This document shows, piece by piece, positions 5,953 to 27,266 of a stretch of 64,000 nt of DNA; the first letter of the stretch is position 1; each line of letters begins with the position of its first letter. Position numbers and translations under genes: made by a program. Below the pieces are notes generated by a model that worked only from the letters and a program-made list of their open reading frames with translations, made no database searches and was not told the origin of the DNA. The DNA is from Thermoproteus uzoniensis 768-20 (GTDB taxonomy: Archaea > Thermoproteota > Thermoprotei > Thermoproteales > Thermoproteaceae): positions 1,186,622 to 1,250,621 of the forward strand of contig NC_015315.1 of assembly GCF_000193375.1 (NCBI RefSeq), written 5' to 3'.

Positions 5953-6855
5953 CTAGACGTAGAGCTCTATATAGAGGAGATCCGCGAGTTCGTTCAGAAG
6001 ATCCCTTATGGGCGTCTCTGTCGACTCCGCCGCCCTAGCCACGTCCTTTTGGGTCACCTCGATGCCTGATATGAAGCAGGCGAAGTAAACGGCCACGGCG
6101 GCCAGCACTTGCGGCTTCCTGCCGTTTCTGATCCTCGGCGAGCGTATTATATAGCTCAGCAGATGCGCGGCGATCCTCTGCACCTGGGCCCCGAGCTCTC
6201 CGTCTAGGCCCAACGCAGAGACTATCCTCGGTATGTATACCCTCGGGTCGACCTTCGGCATCTTCTCGCCGGCTTGCGCCATGTAGCGCAGGAACTCCAT
6301 GTAGGCCGACATGAACGCGCCTCTGTCCAGCCCGGCCTTCTCCACCAAGGAGCGGTAGGTCACGGCGCCCACTCCGTGGCGCTTCACGGCGAAGTAGAGG
6401 GCCGCGGCGTAGCCCTCGCGCCTCGGCGATCTGAAGCCCATCTCGTACGCCTTCTTGTAAAGCGCCACCGCCTCGTCTATAATGGCTCTGGGGATTCCCA
6501 AGAGCTCGCGGAGGGAGTCGTAGAACTCCCTCATGTCGATCTCCAGCCTCTCCGATGCCGACGTGATGGGCTTCGCCGCGCGTTTAAGCCTCAACGCCCT
6601 CAGCTTGTCGGATATCTTGACGACGCCCCGCTCCACGTCGCCGAGCTCGGTCCCCGAGGCGCCCACGAAGGCCCTGGACGATTCCGGCCGCCGCCACTCA
6701 GGCCCCAGATCCACTATGCCCTCCCTAATGACGGTGCCGCATTCGGTACACACTATTACGCCCTGCTCGTAGTCCACGCGCACCTTATTCACGGCGCCGC
6801 AGTTGGGGCAGACGAGGTCCTGTTCGGCGAGCCAGGCCAAGATGCGCCGGGTCAT
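5953..6855 (-). CDS. tfb: Transcription initiation factor TFB (TFIIB homologue)
   Basis: TFB recruits RNA polymerase to the TBP-TATA complex. At 300 residues it has the expected layout: a zinc ribbon near residues 13-42 (CPNCG ... CTECG) and a B-reader/linker with GPEWR and the segment near residues 60-100. Two cyclin-like repeats follow (about 110-195 and 205-300), the second with a recognition helix for the BRE (VTQKDVARAAESTETPIRDL). It overlaps gar1 by 4 bp, a gene pair common in archaea. Thermoproteales usually carry more than one TFB, so this may be one of two paralogues. Confidence 0.97.
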   Translation of the reverse strand: MTRRILAWLAEQDLVCPNCGAVNKVRVDYEQGVIVCTECGTVIREGIVDLGPEWRRPESSRAFVGASGTELGDVERGVVKISDKLRALRLKRAAKPITSASERLEIDMREFYDSLRELLGIPRAIIDEAVALYKKAYEMGFRSPRREGYAAALYFAVKRHGVGAVTYRSLVEKAGLDRGAFMSAYMEFLRYMAQAGEKMPKVDPRVYIPRIVSALGLDGELGAQVQRIAAHLLSYIIRSPRIRNGRKPQVLAAVAVYFACFISGIEVTQKDVARAAESTETPIRDLLNELADLLYIELYV

Positions 6856-13657: not shown

Positions 13658-14326
13658 TCACTCGACTATTACCCCGTCTCTCAGCCGCACGACTCTGTCG
13701 CAGTACTTCAAGAGCTCCAGGTTGTGGGTGACCATGACTATGGTTATCCCGAGCTCCTTCTTGAGGGAGAGGAAGGTCTCCATGACCTTCGCCGCCGTGA
13801 CGCTGTCGAGGTTGCCCGTGGGCTCGTCGGCGAGGAGGATGCGGGGCCTCGCGACTATGGCCCTGGCTATGGCCACCCTCTGTTGCTCGCCTCCCGATAG
13901 CTGGGTCGGTCTCTTCTTGGGATCCACGCCGTCTAGCCCCGCGAGCTTGAGCGCCTCTAGCGCCATCTCGCGCCTCCGGGCTTTCGGGACGCCGCGGAGT
14001 ATTAGGGGGAGCTCCACGTTCTCCAGCACCGTCATCCTGGGTATTAGGTAGAACATCTGGAAGACGAACCCGACGTTCTTGTTTCTGAAGTCGGCGAGCT
14101 GGTCGTCGTTGAGGTCGTTGAGCCTCACTCCGGCAACCCAGACCTCGCCCCTCGTCGGCCTGTCTATGCCGCCTATTATGTGCAACAAGGTGGTCTTGCC
14201 GCTGCCGGAGGGCCCCACAACGCACTGGAATATCCCTCGGGGGATCGAGTAGGTGATGCCCCTAAGGGCCTGGTAGCCCCCGTAGCTCTTGTGTACGTCA
14301 ACCAGCCTTATCTCCTCCTCCGCCAT
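13658..14326 (-). CDS. ABC transporter ATP-binding protein (MacB/LolD type)
   Basis: The 222-residue ATPase has Walker A GPSGSGKTT at about residues 38-46, Q-loop FVFQMFYLIPRMTV, signature LSGGEQQRVAIARAI and Walker B ILLADEPTGNLDS. LSGGEQQRVA with PTGNLDS is characteristic of the LolD/MacB/FtsE branch, which drives mechanotransmission or export rather than pore import. It overlaps the CARDB-type secreted protein gene by 19 bp, and the matching permease lies upstream. All three likely form one machine in which the ATPase powers FtsX-like permeases. Confidence 0.93.
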   Translation of the reverse strand: MAEEEIRLVDVHKSYGGYQALRGITYSIPRGIFQCVVGPSGSGKTTLLHIIGGIDRPTRGEVWVAGVRLNDLNDDQLADFRNKNVGFVFQMFYLIPRMTVLENVELPLILRGVPKARRREMALEALKLAGLDGVDPKKRPTQLSGGEQQRVAIARAIVARPRILLADEPTGNLDSVTAAKVMETFLSLKKELGITIVMVTHNLELLKYCDRVVRLRDGVIVE

Positions 14327-22434: not shown

Positions 22435-23952
22435 CTATCCCCACGCGGTTATGTTGTACACCCTCAGTTGCTGGCCCGTCTGCGTCTGGAAGCCCACGTA
22501 GTACGGCGTAGCGGCGAAGTAGCAGCCGTATCTCGCCAGTATGTTGCCGTAGCTGTCCCTAATTATTATATCGCCGAAGCCGTTCAGCGGCCTCAACTCC
22601 GCGTACGCCGCCGAGGGGTACGAGCCGAGCTGCGCTGTTGAGCCTCCGCAGATCGCCGAGAACATGGAGCCGGAGATAGATACGCCGAAGATAGGCGTAA
22701 GCGACTGCGTGAAGACGGCGTACGTGCCGGAGCCCGTGAAGTTAGCCACATACGTCAAGGCGCCTTGGATCAGCCGCATATAGGCCACGGCGTTGCCCGA
22801 GAGCTGGAGGTAGCCGGGATATACCTGGACGGTACCCAGACCATACCAGCCGTTCGGCAGAGGGCAGGTGGTAGGCGTAAACGACACGTTCGCGAAATAG
22901 CCCGTCGTCTCGCCGTTTGGCGAATATATCACAAGGGCTATCCCGACTATTCTGCCGGTGCTCCAGACGGGGGCCACGCTCCATTTAATCCAAGTGAGCG
23001 AAGGCGGCGATTGGCTTGAATACAGGATCGATACATTGGGCAGGCTGTAGCCGTAGATCGTCTTCGCCAGCAACATGGGATTTCTGCCGTTTACCGAGAT
23101 GTAGTAGACGACCTCTAGGTCGGGACGTCCGTCGCCTGTGGTGTCTATGAAGAAGTTTAGCTGGGCATAATCGGTACCGGTTAGAGACGATTTGAGGGCC
23201 CACCACGTCGTGAAGTTCCAGCTGGCGGGCACAGGCCCTATCCACTTGCTTATGTTTATGAAGGCGGCGGCGTAGCCGTTCTTTCCGTTGAGGACAAGGG
23301 CTTGGATAGAGCCGAGCTTACTCGGCGTGGTGCCGATATACGCTTCGGAATCGCCGCTTGTGTAGAAGGTGAGCCACGACGGTTGCGTCGTGAAGCTGAA
23401 CGTGTATGCGGGGCAGTAGAACGTCTGCTGGTAAAGCCTCTGCATGGGCTCCGCGGTGAAGTTGACCCACTGCCACGCGTATATGCCGCCCTTGTTGATC
23501 AGGGCCCTCGCCAGCACCGAGTAGCGGCTCGTGGCAGTCATGCTCCACGTCAGGGGGGCCGTGACTGGGACGTAGGGCCCGGCCGTCTGCGTGTTTGAAA
23601 TTTCGACCTGGCCGCCGAGAAATATTGCGAAGGGTCCGCCGGGGTTGCCCGATGCCGAGACCTCCACCAGCCGGGCCGACCAGCCGGACTCCCTCGCCGC
23701 GAGGGCCCCGACGACGTAGGACTCGGGCCAGCCGGGCATGAACTTGATGTAGTAGTAGGTCGCGTTTATGGGGCCTAGGACGTACCAGCTCCTGGCCAAG
23801 GGGTAGAGGGAGGCGTTGCCGGTCTTGAGCACCGGGGGCAACGTCGCGTTGACGGACCAATATGTCGCGTTTGAGAACGCCAGAAGCGCCAGCACTAGGG
23901 CGGCCGCCGACAGAGGAAGCGCTAGGAGCGGTAGGGCACGCCGCGCCGTCAC
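22435..23952 (-). CDS. Large secreted protein with TYWxVNATLPP N-terminal motif
   Basis: This 505-residue secreted or anchored protein has a hydrophobic N-terminus (about residues 5-28) followed by FSNATYWSVNATLPPVLK. The small secreted protein at 26619-27224 carries nearly the same sequence in the same place. The rest is beta-rich with many N-x-S/T sequons and a DTTGDGRPDLEVVY segment that resembles a calcium-binding loop. The GTG at 23952 overlaps the upstream regulator's TGA (GTGA), so I prefer it to longer starts. A minor pilin, tip adhesin or surface enzyme linked to the small paralogue is inferred. No catalytic motif is evident. Confidence 0.75.
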   Translation of the reverse strand: MTARRALPLLALPLSAAALVLALLAFSNATYWSVNATLPPVLKTGNASLYPLARSWYVLGPINATYYYIKFMPGWPESYVVGALAARESGWSARLVEVSASGNPGGPFAIFLGGQVEISNTQTAGPYVPVTAPLTWSMTATSRYSVLARALINKGGIYAWQWVNFTAEPMQRLYQQTFYCPAYTFSFTTQPSWLTFYTSGDSEAYIGTTPSKLGSIQALVLNGKNGYAAAFINISKWIGPVPASWNFTTWWALKSSLTGTDYAQLNFFIDTTGDGRPDLEVVYYISVNGRNPMLLAKTIYGYSLPNVSILYSSQSPPSLTWIKWSVAPVWSTGRIVGIALVIYSPNGETTGYFANVSFTPTTCPLPNGWYGLGTVQVYPGYLQLSGNAVAYMRLIQGALTYVANFTGSGTYAVFTQSLTPIFGVSISGSMFSAICGGSTAQLGSYPSAAYAELRPLNGFGDIIIRDSYGNILARYGCYFAATPYYVGFQTQTGQQLRVYNITAWG

Positions 23953-24602
23953 GAGGACGCCATTAGGTCCAGCTTCTCCCTGTCCTCTAGGGAGAGCGTC
24001 GAGGGGTCTACCGACGAGAGTATCACGTCGGCCGCGGCTCTCCTGTCCACATAGTAGTACGTGAAGGGACCCACCTTGACGGACTTCAGCTTCCCCTCCC
24101 TCTCCAGCACGTAGACGTGCCACTGGACGGCCCCCCAGCTCCTGCCCACGGCCTTGGCTATCTGGGAAAGAGTGGCGGCGCCCATCCTCTGCACGGCCTC
24201 GACGATCTGCCTCTTAAGGGGATCGTCCGCCGTCGCTCTCTTGTAGCGGCCGATTATGGGCGCGAGAGCCGCGAGGGCCCACTCCCTTCTGTTGAGGCCT
24301 ATCTGCGTCGCCGCGGCGGCCCCGGCCACAGCCGCGATAGCCGCAACGGGCAACGACTGGGGCGGGAGCGGAGGTGGCGGAGGGGGCGTCTGGCTCTGGA
24401 CCGCTACGTAGCCCCTAACCTCGACCGTCTTGTTCGTGGGGTTCACGCAGGTTATGACGGCCTCGCCCGACGCCTGGAAGGGCTGGTTGGGCGCGCAGAA
24501 GGGCGGGAGGTGAGGGTAAACGGTGTAGTTGCCCGGCAGGTATAGGTGTATGGGGTATACAGCCAGCGGCAGCAACACGGCGACTACCGTCACATTAAAC
24601 AT
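23949..24602 (-). CDS. Membrane-anchored winged-helix regulator
   Basis: From the ATG at 24602 the 217-residue protein has an N-terminal hydrophobic segment (about 3-20) and a short extracytoplasmic domain with Cys36 and Cys52 and sequons. A run of prolines (about 73-81), a membrane helix (about 84-103) and then a cytoplasmic basic linker follow. The winged helix at about 128-188 includes QIVEAVQRMGAATLSQIAKAVGRSWGAVQWHVYVLEREGKL. This is a one-component transmembrane sensor plan like the ArnR-type archaeal regulators. It is co-transcribed with the large secreted protein. The start is chosen because the TATA-like box (24621-24630) lies 24 bp away. Confidence 0.82.
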   Translation of the reverse strand: MFNVTVVAVLLPLAVYPIHLYLPGNYTVYPHLPPFCAPNQPFQASGEAVITCVNPTNKTVEVRGYVAVQSQTPPPPPPLPPQSLPVAAIAAVAGAAAATQIGLNRREWALAALAPIIGRYKRATADDPLKRQIVEAVQRMGAATLSQIAKAVGRSWGAVQWHVYVLEREGKLKSVKVGPFTYYYVDRRAAADVILSSVDPSTLSLEDREKLDLMASS

Positions 24603-24620
24603 ATCCACACCGACACGGCT

Positions 24621-24640
24621 GAATATATACTTTGCGTAGT
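24621..24640 (-). promoter_or_regulatory. Promoter with ACTACGCAAA element next to TATA
   Basis: On the minus strand ACTACGCAAA (24640-24631) directly precedes the TATA-like GTATATATTC (24630-24621) of the membrane regulator gene. The pilin-like gene promoter has ACTACGTAAA in the same place (27264-27255). The element overlaps the stop of the small membrane protein gene, so this is an internal promoter. Confidence 0.55.
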
Positions 24641-24990
24641 CATATAAGGAAGGGGTCGGGCAGGCCCAGCGCCCGAGCCACCGCGAGGAGCACGACGAGG
24701 TACGCCCAGCCGGATGCCGCGAAGAGGTAGGCTGTCCACCACCTCCTGTAGATGCCCCACCAAGAGTAGACGAGCGAGACCGCCATGAGCCCCAGCGCGA
24801 GCAGGTACGTCAGCCTGACGTAGAACTGGCCCCACAGCTGGGCGAGGACCCCCAACACGAAGCCGTCGGCGAAGGAGGCGAGAAGCCCGGCGGCTCTGAC
24901 GTAGTCGATCTCGGAGCCTTGGTACATCAGGGCCAGCAACGGCGTCAGCGCGAGGGCGGCGCCTATCAAGATGGCGAGTACGGGGTCCAT
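24640..24990 (-). CDS. Small polytopic membrane protein
   Basis: The 116-residue protein (start ATG 24990, MDPVLAILIGAALALTPLL) has about four hydrophobic segments near residues 3-22, 35-55, 60-78 and 90-108, with little soluble sequence. No family is recognised. It follows the other small membrane protein by 1 bp and shares an operon with two secreted proteins, so a role in their export, assembly or anchoring is plausible. Nothing catalytic such as a signal peptidase Ser/Lys pair is visible. Confidence 0.65.
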   Translation of the reverse strand: MDPVLAILIGAALALTPLLALMYQGSEIDYVRAAGLLASFADGFVLGVLAQLWGQFYVRLTYLLALGLMAVSLVYSWWGIYRRWWTAYLFAASGWAYLVVLLAVARALGLPDPFLI

Positions 24991-24991
24991 A

Positions 24992-25387
24992 TCAGAACAG
25001 CCAGAGCGTATACTGTCCCGACATCTGCGCCGTTGCCCAGAGCACGGCGAGGTAGACATACGGCGCGCTGGCGATGAGCGCTATGTCGAGGTCGCGCCTG
25101 GAGGGGTGGAGCGCTAATACAAATATCAAGAGCTGGCTCGCTACGACTAGCGCCAGCGCTATTAAGGCCGAGAGCCTGGCGTAAACCTGAGGCGCCCCGG
25201 ACGTTATGAGCAGGGCCAAGTAGACGTTGGCCGCCGTGCCGAATATTATGAAGGCCGTCGCGGCGTCTCTATCGGGGAACAGCTCCGAGCGGCCGGCACT
25301 CCCCGCGGCCTTCTGCTCAGCCCACTGCCTCGCCACAGCCAGCGCAAGGCCCCAGACCAGTCCGGCGAGGAGCGGGATCAGCTCCAC
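24992..25387 (-). CDS. Small polytopic membrane protein
   Basis: The start is taken as GTG at 25387 (ELIPLLAGLVWGLALAVARQW), overlapping the end of the upstream secreted protein gene by 10 bp, giving 131 residues. Four hydrophobic segments are visible (about 3-18, 46-65, 72-93 and 104-122) with a charged cytoplasmic loop (EQKAAGSAGRSELFPDRD). It resembles its 116-residue neighbour in plan but not clearly in sequence. Function is unknown; the conserved gene order with surface proteins suggests an assembly-platform role. Confidence 0.65.
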   Translation of the reverse strand: MELIPLLAGLVWGLALAVARQWAEQKAAGSAGRSELFPDRDAATAFIIFGTAANVYLALLITSGAPQVYARLSALIALALVVASQLLIFVLALHPSRRDLDIALIASAPYVYLAVLWATAQMSGQYTLWLF

Positions 25388-26619
25388 GGCCTCAGCCTCT
25401 CGACAGAGACAGACACTATCTGCGGGAGGCCGCCCCACCGCCCCGTTCTGTCCGCTATCACTACGAAGGGCCCTGCCCAGCCGGACGGCGCGCCGAAGGG
25501 CAGAGGCGCGTTGCGCGTGTAGGGGACCATGGGGCCTAGGTAGTAGTACGTCGTGCCGTTCTGGGGAAAGACCCAGAAGGGGCCTAGGCGGCCGGCCGGA
25601 GGCCTAGAGCCGAAGAGGACCAAGTCCGACGTGAGGTAGGCCGTTGGGGTGAAGTCGACGTAGTAGAGCAAAGAGTACATGCCCACAGAGGTGCCGAACC
25701 CGTATATATACACTGCGTCGGCTATGGAGGAGCCGTTGGCCGCCACCACCGTCGCCACAGGCCCCTCTATCGTGTAGGCCACAGACAGCTTGGGCTTCGC
25801 CAGCAAGTACGCTGTGGGCCTCGGCGCGCCGATAAGGCCTATGTTGTTAGACGACGCGATTGCGGGGACGTCGACGGCGGGCGCCGGAGGCGCCTTGACC
25901 TCGAGGCAGGGGGCCGGATAGACGTAGATAGTGGCGTTGCCCGATAGATCTAGGAGGAACGTATACCAAGGAGCGCCGCCCTTCGCGGGGATCCAGAGAG
26001 GCGAGCCGCTCACCAAAACGCCGGGGGCCAGCTGGGCGTAGGGGATCGGTTGCGTCACTAGGAGCGAGCCGCCTCGCTCCACGACGCATCCGTCGAGCGG
26101 GAGCTGGCCGACCGCGACGTTCCAGGCGTAGAGCGTCCCGTCGGGCGCCAGCTGGAGCAACTGCCAGCCCGATCCGTTGATAACCACGGCGACTCTCGTG
26201 TCGACGTTGGGGTACCAGTCTATCTCCTTGACCCTAAAGGAGAAGCTCGCCTTCCAGGAGGCGTAGAGGAACTCAACTCTGCAAGCCCCCTGATAGCCCG
26301 GCGGTACGAAGACGTCCAGCCTGTACTCCCCAGGCCCCCTTAGATATGTAGGCAGGCCGAAGGGGCAGTCCGAGTTGACGTAGACCAGGGGGGACTCCAC
26401 GTCGATTGGGATGAGCCCGGGGTACCTCCACGTCCCGAAGGGCGAACTGTAGAGGTAGAACGTCCCGTTCCTAAACGCCGCGTAGGGCGGCGGCGACGGC
26501 TGGGGGAGCAGTGCCGGCTGGGCCGCCTTGAAGACGTACTCCCCCGAGGGGGAGGCCACCGATATGAGAAAAACCAGAAAGGGAAGTAGAGAGACGAAAA
26601 AACGCTTGATTTGTCTCAT
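25378..26619 (-). CDS. Secreted protein of the surface cluster
   Basis: This 413-residue protein has a signal peptide (RQIKRFFVSLLPFLVFLISVASPSG) and then a beta-rich domain with Cys pairs near residues 85/112 and 178/238, sequons and Pro-rich linkers (AQPALLPQPSPPPYA and KAPPAPAVD). There is no C-terminal membrane anchor. It starts on the stop of the small secreted protein (TAATG), showing tight co-expression. A secreted structural subunit, chaperone or cap of the presumed filament is possible; nothing enzymatic is seen. Confidence 0.72.
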   Translation of the reverse strand: MRQIKRFFVSLLPFLVFLISVASPSGEYVFKAAQPALLPQPSPPPYAAFRNGTFYLYSSPFGTWRYPGLIPIDVESPLVYVNSDCPFGLPTYLRGPGEYRLDVFVPPGYQGACRVEFLYASWKASFSFRVKEIDWYPNVDTRVAVVINGSGWQLLQLAPDGTLYAWNVAVGQLPLDGCVVERGGSLLVTQPIPYAQLAPGVLVSGSPLWIPAKGGAPWYTFLLDLSGNATIYVYPAPCLEVKAPPAPAVDVPAIASSNNIGLIGAPRPTAYLLAKPKLSVAYTIEGPVATVVAANGSSIADAVYIYGFGTSVGMYSLLYYVDFTPTAYLTSDLVLFGSRPPAGRLGPFWVFPQNGTTYYYLGPMVPYTRNAPLPFGAPSGWAGPFVVIADRTGRWGGLPQIVSVSVERLRPWS

Positions 26620-27224
26620 TAAGTCGAGAATATTATGTCGACCTCGTAGGTGGCCAAGACCGTGTTTCCGTTTGCGACGCCGGCGCTATAGGCACTGGGA
26701 TCGACCAGAACCGATACGCCTAAAGTTATGCACTGATTCTGAGATATCTGGCCCAGAATAACAGGTCCGGTGCTGGGGGTGCCGGTATAGGTGAAGCCGA
26801 CCCACTGTCCGGTGTTGCTGGGGTTGTATACAATAAACTGTTTTACATAGTTCGAATATGGAGACGATCCGCTGACAGGCCCTACGTACTTTATAGATAC
26901 GGTGAGGGGACCGTTGTAGTAATAGTTGCATACCCTCAGGGCATTTGTGTAGTTCGTTATATCGCCAGTGAAGCCTACTATGGAGATCTTGGTAACGTTG
27001 AGGCCGTTGCCCGGGCTGTACCAAGTCACGTATATGTAGTTGCTGTAGCCGGAGCCGTCGCTTCTGCCGGTGATGCTTGTGTCTGAGCCGGCGTACTTCA
27101 TGGCGGGGGGCAACGTGGCGTTTACTTGCCAGTAGGTCACGTTGGTGAACTGCAACGCCGCAAGCGATATGGCGGCCAGCGCCAGGCCGGCGAACGCCAG
27201 CAGTCCGAGCCTTCTCTTGTCCAT
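26619..27224 (-). CDS. Small secreted pilin-like protein (possible TasA/AbpA-type subunit)
   Basis: The 201-residue protein has a short basic start (MDKRRL), a hydrophobic signal segment (about 6-24) and then FTNVTYWQVNATLPPAMK. A single beta-rich domain ending ATYEVDIIFST follows. There is no type IV prepilin motif. The size, signal peptide and beta-sandwich-like composition resemble the TasA/camelysin-like subunits of archaeal bundling pili known from Pyrobaculum calidifontis; that homology is my inference and was not tested. Two Cys (near 103 and 170) may pair. It is first in its operon, with the ATG 26 bp from TATA, consistent with high expression of a major subunit. Confidence 0.7.
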   Translation of the reverse strand: MDKRRLGLLAFAGLALAAISLAALQFTNVTYWQVNATLPPAMKYAGSDTSITGRSDGSGYSNYIYVTWYSPGNGLNVTKISIVGFTGDITNYTNALRVCNYYYNGPLTVSIKYVGPVSGSSPYSNYVKQFIVYNPSNTGQWVGFTYTGTPSTGPVILGQISQNQCITLGVSVLVDPSAYSAGVANGNTVLATYEVDIIFST

Positions 27225-27228
27225 GTAC

Positions 27229-27266
27229 TTTACATAGTTGAGCAGTATAAATATTTTACGTAGTTG
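27229..27266 (-). promoter_or_regulatory. Pilin-like gene promoter with repeated CAACTAYGTAAA
   Basis: On the minus strand CAACTACGTAAA (27266-27255) abuts the TATA-like ATATTTATAC (27254-27245). A second copy, CAACTATGTAAA (27240-27229), covers the predicted transcription start. The 26-bp spacing between copies brackets the TATA box. The first copy matches the element at the membrane regulator promoter. Confidence 0.6.

Follow-up and report, generated by a model that had tools for sequence, protein, structure and literature searches.

The stretch of DNA analysed here (the window, 64 kb in length, from a genome of 1,936,063 bases, G000 where it has to be told from others) carries on its reverse strand a cluster of genes for a TasA-like bundling pilin and its presumable companions, in the midst of which lies a frame for a putative membrane-borne transcription regulator, referred to below as the sensor. 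In window positions, the features relevant to the argument are the following:

22435..23952 (-): AbpL, large subunit with an AbpA-like N-terminus (hhalign to AbpA, 97.8%; profile to PDB 7ueg, E 4.7e-6)
23949..24602 (-): sensor/regulator gene, 217 aa (open frame; relatives matching over the whole length in 21 of the 398 genomes of the phylum)
24051..24224 (-): sensor residues 127-184, winged helix (Pfam HTH_24; model pLDDT ~90; PDB winged helices at Z ~10)
24096..24137 (-): sensor residues 156-169, predicted recognition helix SWGAVQWHVYVLER (helix 3 of the AlphaFold2 model; W161/H162 invariant)
24297..24353 (-): sensor residues 84-102, membrane helix, then NRRE (hydropathy, KD 1.62, and positive-inside rule)
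24354..24536 (-): sensor residues 23-83, ectodomain of 61 residues with C36 and C52 (Cys and sequon counts)
24360..24386 (-): sensor residues 73-81, PPPPPPLPP linker (sequence)
24537..24593 (-): sensor residues 4-22, signal peptide or first anchor at the N-terminus (KD 2.02)
24623..24639 (-): sensor promoter element CTACGCAAAGTATATAT (one of two window matches)
24640..24990 (-): TM139, small membrane protein adjoining the sensor, probably with four TM segments by eye (a search of 61 genomes gave homologs in 14)
24992..25387 (-): TM148, membrane protein with four TM segments (cluster homologs, four hydrophobic segments; GTG start by eye)
25378..26619 (-): S413, exported protein of 413 aa (a search of 61 genomes showed it conserved in 13)
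26619..27224 (-): abpA, TasA-like bundling pilin (phmmer to PDB 7ueg, E 5.6e-55, residues 6-201)
27247..27263 (-): abpA promoter element CTACGTAAAATATTTAT (one of two window matches; genome-wide counts)

The earlier note had described the sensor as one chain of 217 aa lying among secreted proteins and starting within their cluster, all of which stands: the frame is open throughout, and 14 genomes of the window's family, its own among them, carry relatives of 217-232 aa having the same architecture (34-73% identity to the window's sensor in alignment A1), which speaks for one gene and against two separate ones. An alternative GTG upstream would lengthen the protein by two residues. The secreted neighbours can now be named as the AbpA bundling-pilus (abp) cluster, in which the sensor has a TATA-type promoter of its own, ~20 nt 5' of its ATG, and its stop overlaps the start of AbpL by GTGA.

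The two cysteines and the nine-residue proline-rich stretch had likewise been read correctly; exactly two ectodomain Cys are present in 24/24 family members, and a Pro-rich linker in most of the same-family relatives, the exact string not being kept. The single membrane helix proposed earlier exists, to which a hydrophobic segment at the very N-terminus, then uncounted, has to be added (such a segment is present in all 23 sensor sequences scanned). A hydropathy scan of the window's sensor places K/R after the second hydrophobic segment only, and the composition of 24 family members points the same way, with 44 N-X-S/T sequons in 1852 ectodomain residues versus none in 2917 cytoplasmic ones, and K/R at 88/1852 between the hydrophobic segments versus 461/2917 after the second; the winged helix is thus placed inside, as had been claimed, and the ectodomain outside, a call made by hydropathy and composition arguments (the positive-inside rule among them) rather than by a trained topology predictor. 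The ectodomain is probably glycosylated.

That the cytoplasmic part is a winged helix is upheld by Pfam HTH_24 at residues 127-172 (26.3 bits versus a cut-off of 21.9) and by the AlphaFold2 model (three-row alignment), confident at residues 125-217; NCBIfam gave sub-threshold HTH matches only, PF24266 (HVO_0163-type winged helix) scored 17.9 bits, under its curated cut-off of 31, while matching 19 of the 20 aligned sensor members at E<=0.01, and the PDB comparison, done with the winged helix only, returned many winged helices tied at about the same Z, naming no single family. This is also the best conserved part of the protein, the Trp and His of the predicted recognition helix being invariant across the 20 aligned sequences. 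Two AlphaFold2 runs with three-row alignments yielded no confident fold for the ectodomain (pLDDT <50 for residues 1-124 in the whole chain; mean pLDDT of 64 for the ectodomain alone). Mimicry of the pilin donor strand (TYWxVNATLPP) by the LPP-strand motif of the ectodomain was considered and rejected, as the ectodomain profile met AbpA/AbpL at 0.1-0.2% probability.

Apart from the sensor, Pfam and NCBIfam recognise no DNA-binding protein within the abp cluster, and 7ueg is the sole PDB match of the AbpL profile. The AbpA of one Pyrobaculum-type locus (L058, genome G009) is, by eye, the same as the 7ueg chain where the printed stretches overlap. AbpL varies in length, with 505 aa in the window, 506 in G002 and frames of ~705-780 aa elsewhere, the middle part being missing from the short forms; a search for direct repeats inside the cluster gave short two-copy matches at most. 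Pyrobaculum cells, according to PMC9905601, aggregate through such bundling pili, which are similar to the TasA fibres found in the biofilms of bacteria.

The sensor and the pilin are inherited together. At E<=1e-12, the sensor profile finds 42 of 398 phylum genomes, with a whole-length match in 21 of these, 14 from the window's own family (f1, Thermoproteus/Pyrobaculum, with a Thermoproteus-like genus g1 and a Pyrobaculum-like genus g3) and seven from a second one (f5, which we take to be Thermofilaceae), and AbpA matches are found in 24. Both occur in 20 genomes, the full-length sensor only in one (G004), AbpA only in four (G010, whose pilin is truncated, G028, G060 and G231) and neither in 373, relatives being included in these counts, which are hence not independent. 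The two genes share a cluster in 19 of the 20 genomes having both (13/13 in f1, 6/7 in f5). The order abpA-S413-TM148-TM139-sensor-AbpL recurs in f1, the two small membrane proteins not having been found in the G017 cluster; in f5, a sensor of ~290 aa stands ahead of abpA, an exported protein of ~470-498 aa and AbpL, adjoining abpA or lying within ~1.2 kb of it in six of seven genomes. A TM139-like protein is beside or near the sensor in four of the seven (profile matches), including G049, in which the sensor and abpA are 12 kb apart.

Sensor paralogs also stand alone in three Pyrobaculum-type genomes (L047:6888-7562, L052:5767-6438 and L054:5749-6420), those of L047 and L052 having two ATPases, one ParA-like and one of AAA type, and small genes nearby, and a fourth such copy, in G012 (C1:2028832-2029305), is interrupted by stop codons. 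In the tree, the sensors of G000 and G002 group with these paralogs (87/97 and 94/92, not starred), despite which both are located in abp clusters and carry the promoter element described below; if that placement is right, the element goes with location and not with the ancestry of the sensor. Relatives of the DNA-binding part of ~105 aa, which are probably soluble, being too short for an ectodomain and a membrane helix, occur in most Pyrobaculum-type genomes (e.g., G013, G016, G011, G009 and G010), and two other archaeal frames (L102:9421-10743 and L103:8869-9873) combine a long, different ectodomain and a membrane segment with a related winged helix.

An element shared by the abpA and sensor promoters at the BRE position is a new finding of this work. 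Allowing for <=2 mismatches, the whole window matches it at these two promoters only, with 0.02 matches expected, and at both it lies directly 5' of the TATA box and ~20 nt before the start codon; genome-wide, one further exact site of a slightly wider pattern, at 14304, lacks a clear gene start at the right distance. In G001, CTACGCAAAATATATAT is found at both promoters, which are that genome's sole sites at <=1 mismatch (2/2 exact). A search of 16 genomes with the Pyrobaculum-type pattern, CAACGTTRAATATWWA, gave 17 exact sites, which all lie directly 5' of abpA copies (12) or sensors (5), although it should be stressed that the patterns were derived from sites seen beforehand, so that on-target matches arise by construction and only the scarcity of off-target ones is a test, and that sites of related genomes are not independent. 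With one mismatch, 12 more sites appear, two at sensors and 10 elsewhere, the reversed control pattern giving eight at <=1 mismatch. One of the 17 exact sites precedes a lone abpA (G011:C1:1471921-1472490) ~750 kb from the pilus cluster, which may be a recent copy duplicated along with its promoter. The CAACGTTG part of the abpA promoters is a perfect 8-bp palindrome, which in G009 spans, by hand count, -38 to -31 and so covers the BRE position, on the assumption that transcription begins at the ATG.

A core, ACG[TC][TA], abutting the TATA box was counted among putative leaderless promoters of the fetched f1 loci (loci L114-L132, to which the pattern itself had led, are excluded, and abp genes with an unrecognised TATA box, e.g., the sensors in L055, L058 and L059, are skipped by the count). 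It is present in 31 of 34 abp promoters, those of TM148 in five genomes included, versus three of 105 others (Fisher p 3.7e-24, a value that ignores relatedness and concerns a core selected with the sites already in view). TM139 frames make up all three of the abp cases without it, and these are probably not true promoters; the stand-alone sensor paralogs have the core in neither of their two distinct promoters, and the G009 sensor promoter, CAACACAAAAC, departs from it, being without ACG. In f5, a different element, GAACTAAWAMGNWTATAA, has seven sites at <=1 mismatch in eight genomes, six of them abpA/sensor promoters of three genomes, and is common to abpA and the sensor in three of seven genomes only (G297 was searched with this pattern, its promoters not being read).

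The Thermoproteus-type pattern is less specific: it has 21 sites at 0-1 mismatch in seven genomes, five of which are sensor/abpA promoters, and it misses the abpA promoter of G002, TACGTAAAGAATATATAT. By eye, this element or close variants of it stand at the same spacing before type IV pilin-like and MscS-like genes in G002 and G003, so that in Thermoproteus it is not private to abp or sensor genes, and as both abpA and a full-length sensor are missing from G003, another factor can use such promoters. These loci (L118, L120, L124 and L126) hint at a wider surface regulon in Thermoproteus.

Taking together what was computed here (the build of the protein, its gene cluster, its joint inheritance with AbpA and the common promoter element), we regard it as fairly probable that the sensor is a transmembrane one-component autoregulator of the abp pilus cluster, acting through the shared promoter element, which the sensor protein would itself bind. 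The two-Cys ectodomain would face the outside, one helix would cross the membrane and the C-terminal winged helix would bind DNA, most likely at the element directly 5' of the TATA box, that is, on the BRE, with the promoter of the pilin operon and that of its own operon (sensor plus AbpL) as the targets. The proposal of the earlier note, a membrane protein that passes a surface signal to DNA with no kinase in between, agrees with this anatomy and its conservation; pilus subunits, surface contact or the redox state of the Cys pair might serve as the signal, for which the Pro-rich linker and the single helix would offer a short path through the membrane. The outcome would be autoregulation and a pilin output set by an outside cue, perhaps by the state of the pilus itself. 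Archaeal repressors that sit on the BRE can work by exclusion of TFB/TBP, and with the putative operator on the BRE, we lean slightly toward the sensor mainly repressing in this manner, activation being possible as well. A more ambitious version, in which the ectodomain and TM139 read AbpA/AbpL assembly in an outside-in feedback switch, the winged helix occupies the BRE both at the pilin promoter and at its own, and the sensor and its operator have changed together in the two families as a self-contained regulon under one rare element, is, for the time being, rather doubtful.

The strongest competitor would make the element a variant BRE, recognised either by a divergent paralog of TFB or by one of the small soluble winged-helix relatives; the sensor would then belong to the regulon without binding the element, or would act on different genes. 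The BRE position itself suits this, as do the elements or variants before other surface genes of G003, a genome devoid of a full-length sensor, the ~105-aa relatives in most Pyrobaculum-type genomes and a divergent second TFB inside the window at ~5983-6264(-) (G000:C1:1192604-1192885). Divergent TFB paralogs, however, are found in genomes of the family both with and without abp, which neither proves nor excludes their involvement, whereas a general TFB would leave the confinement of all 17 exact sites to abp genes unexplained, and the f5 promoter pair has a different common element; we thus find this explanation unlikely. Were the Cys pair, kept in every family member counted, to make the sensor a general envelope-stress or redox sensor with abp as one target of a broad surface regulon, the element-like promoters of MscS-like and type IV pilin-like genes in G002 and G003 would fall into place, and so would the stand-alone sensor copies outside abp clusters, but Pyrobaculum-type genomes have the exact element at abp genes only, and the sensor is nearly always co-inherited with AbpA, making such a role improbable. 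Least credible of all, and very improbable in our view, is a membrane factor for assembly or anchoring of the pilus, with a winged helix that no longer binds DNA: the GTGA overlap with AbpL and the conserved membrane partner TM139 would agree with it, whereas a common promoter element and a winged helix that is the best conserved part of the protein, invariant Trp and His included, would not.

The autoregulator reading has several counterparts among known systems. Both sequence features of transmembrane transcription regulators (TTRs) given in PMC10269533, a predicted DNA-binding domain and at least one membrane segment, are present in the sensor, and TTRs such as those of the ToxR class, as described there, similarly join the two in one chain without a kinase and may have a small membrane protein beside the regulator (ToxS/TcpH-like partners), as TM139 is beside the sensor. 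The sensor differs from them in being archaeal, in having an N-terminal ectodomain and a C-terminal winged helix and in being tied to TasA-like pili. The domain order of ToxR is the reverse of that of the sensor. Another counterpart is Rsp of Neisseria gonorrhoeae, according to the same survey (PMC10269533) a PilS receptor fused to the DNA-binding part of PilR, i.e., membrane receptor first and DNA-binding part last, and it also controls a pilin gene; that gene, however, belongs to a bacterial type IV pilus and the origin is unrelated, a distinction drawn by description and not by sequence. As for the likeness to ArnR suggested in the earlier note, it holds loosely: ArnR/ArnR1 of Sulfolobus acidocaldarius are, according to PMC6396743, also archaeal membrane-bound one-component regulators of surface filaments, but with the polarity reversed: in ArnR the HTH stands at the N-terminus, a HAMP and sensing domain borders the membrane and two membrane helices close the chain, whereas the sensor has its ectodomain first and its HTH last, behind the membrane segments. 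ArnR/ArnR1, furthermore, target a type IV filament, whereas the sensor goes with donor-strand (Abp) pili and has a true ectodomain; its Pfam matches include no HAMP, ArnR having been compared by description and not by sequence.

The archaeal bundling pili built of this same pilin, AbpA, have had their structure determined (7ueg; PNAS 2022 e2207037119), and the regulator and the element proposed here are a layer separate from that work, so far as papers citing it show. No report on the regulation of bundling (Abp) pili was found in the literature searched, beyond the reach of which lay the original AbpA paper, which may mention the gene. The sensor is therefore put forward as a candidate switch for the bundling pili, with a candidate target of 16-17 bp, both of which are testable in an organism whose pilus structure has been solved; if the proposal is true, it would provide a clean case of a transcription factor working from the membrane at the core promoter.
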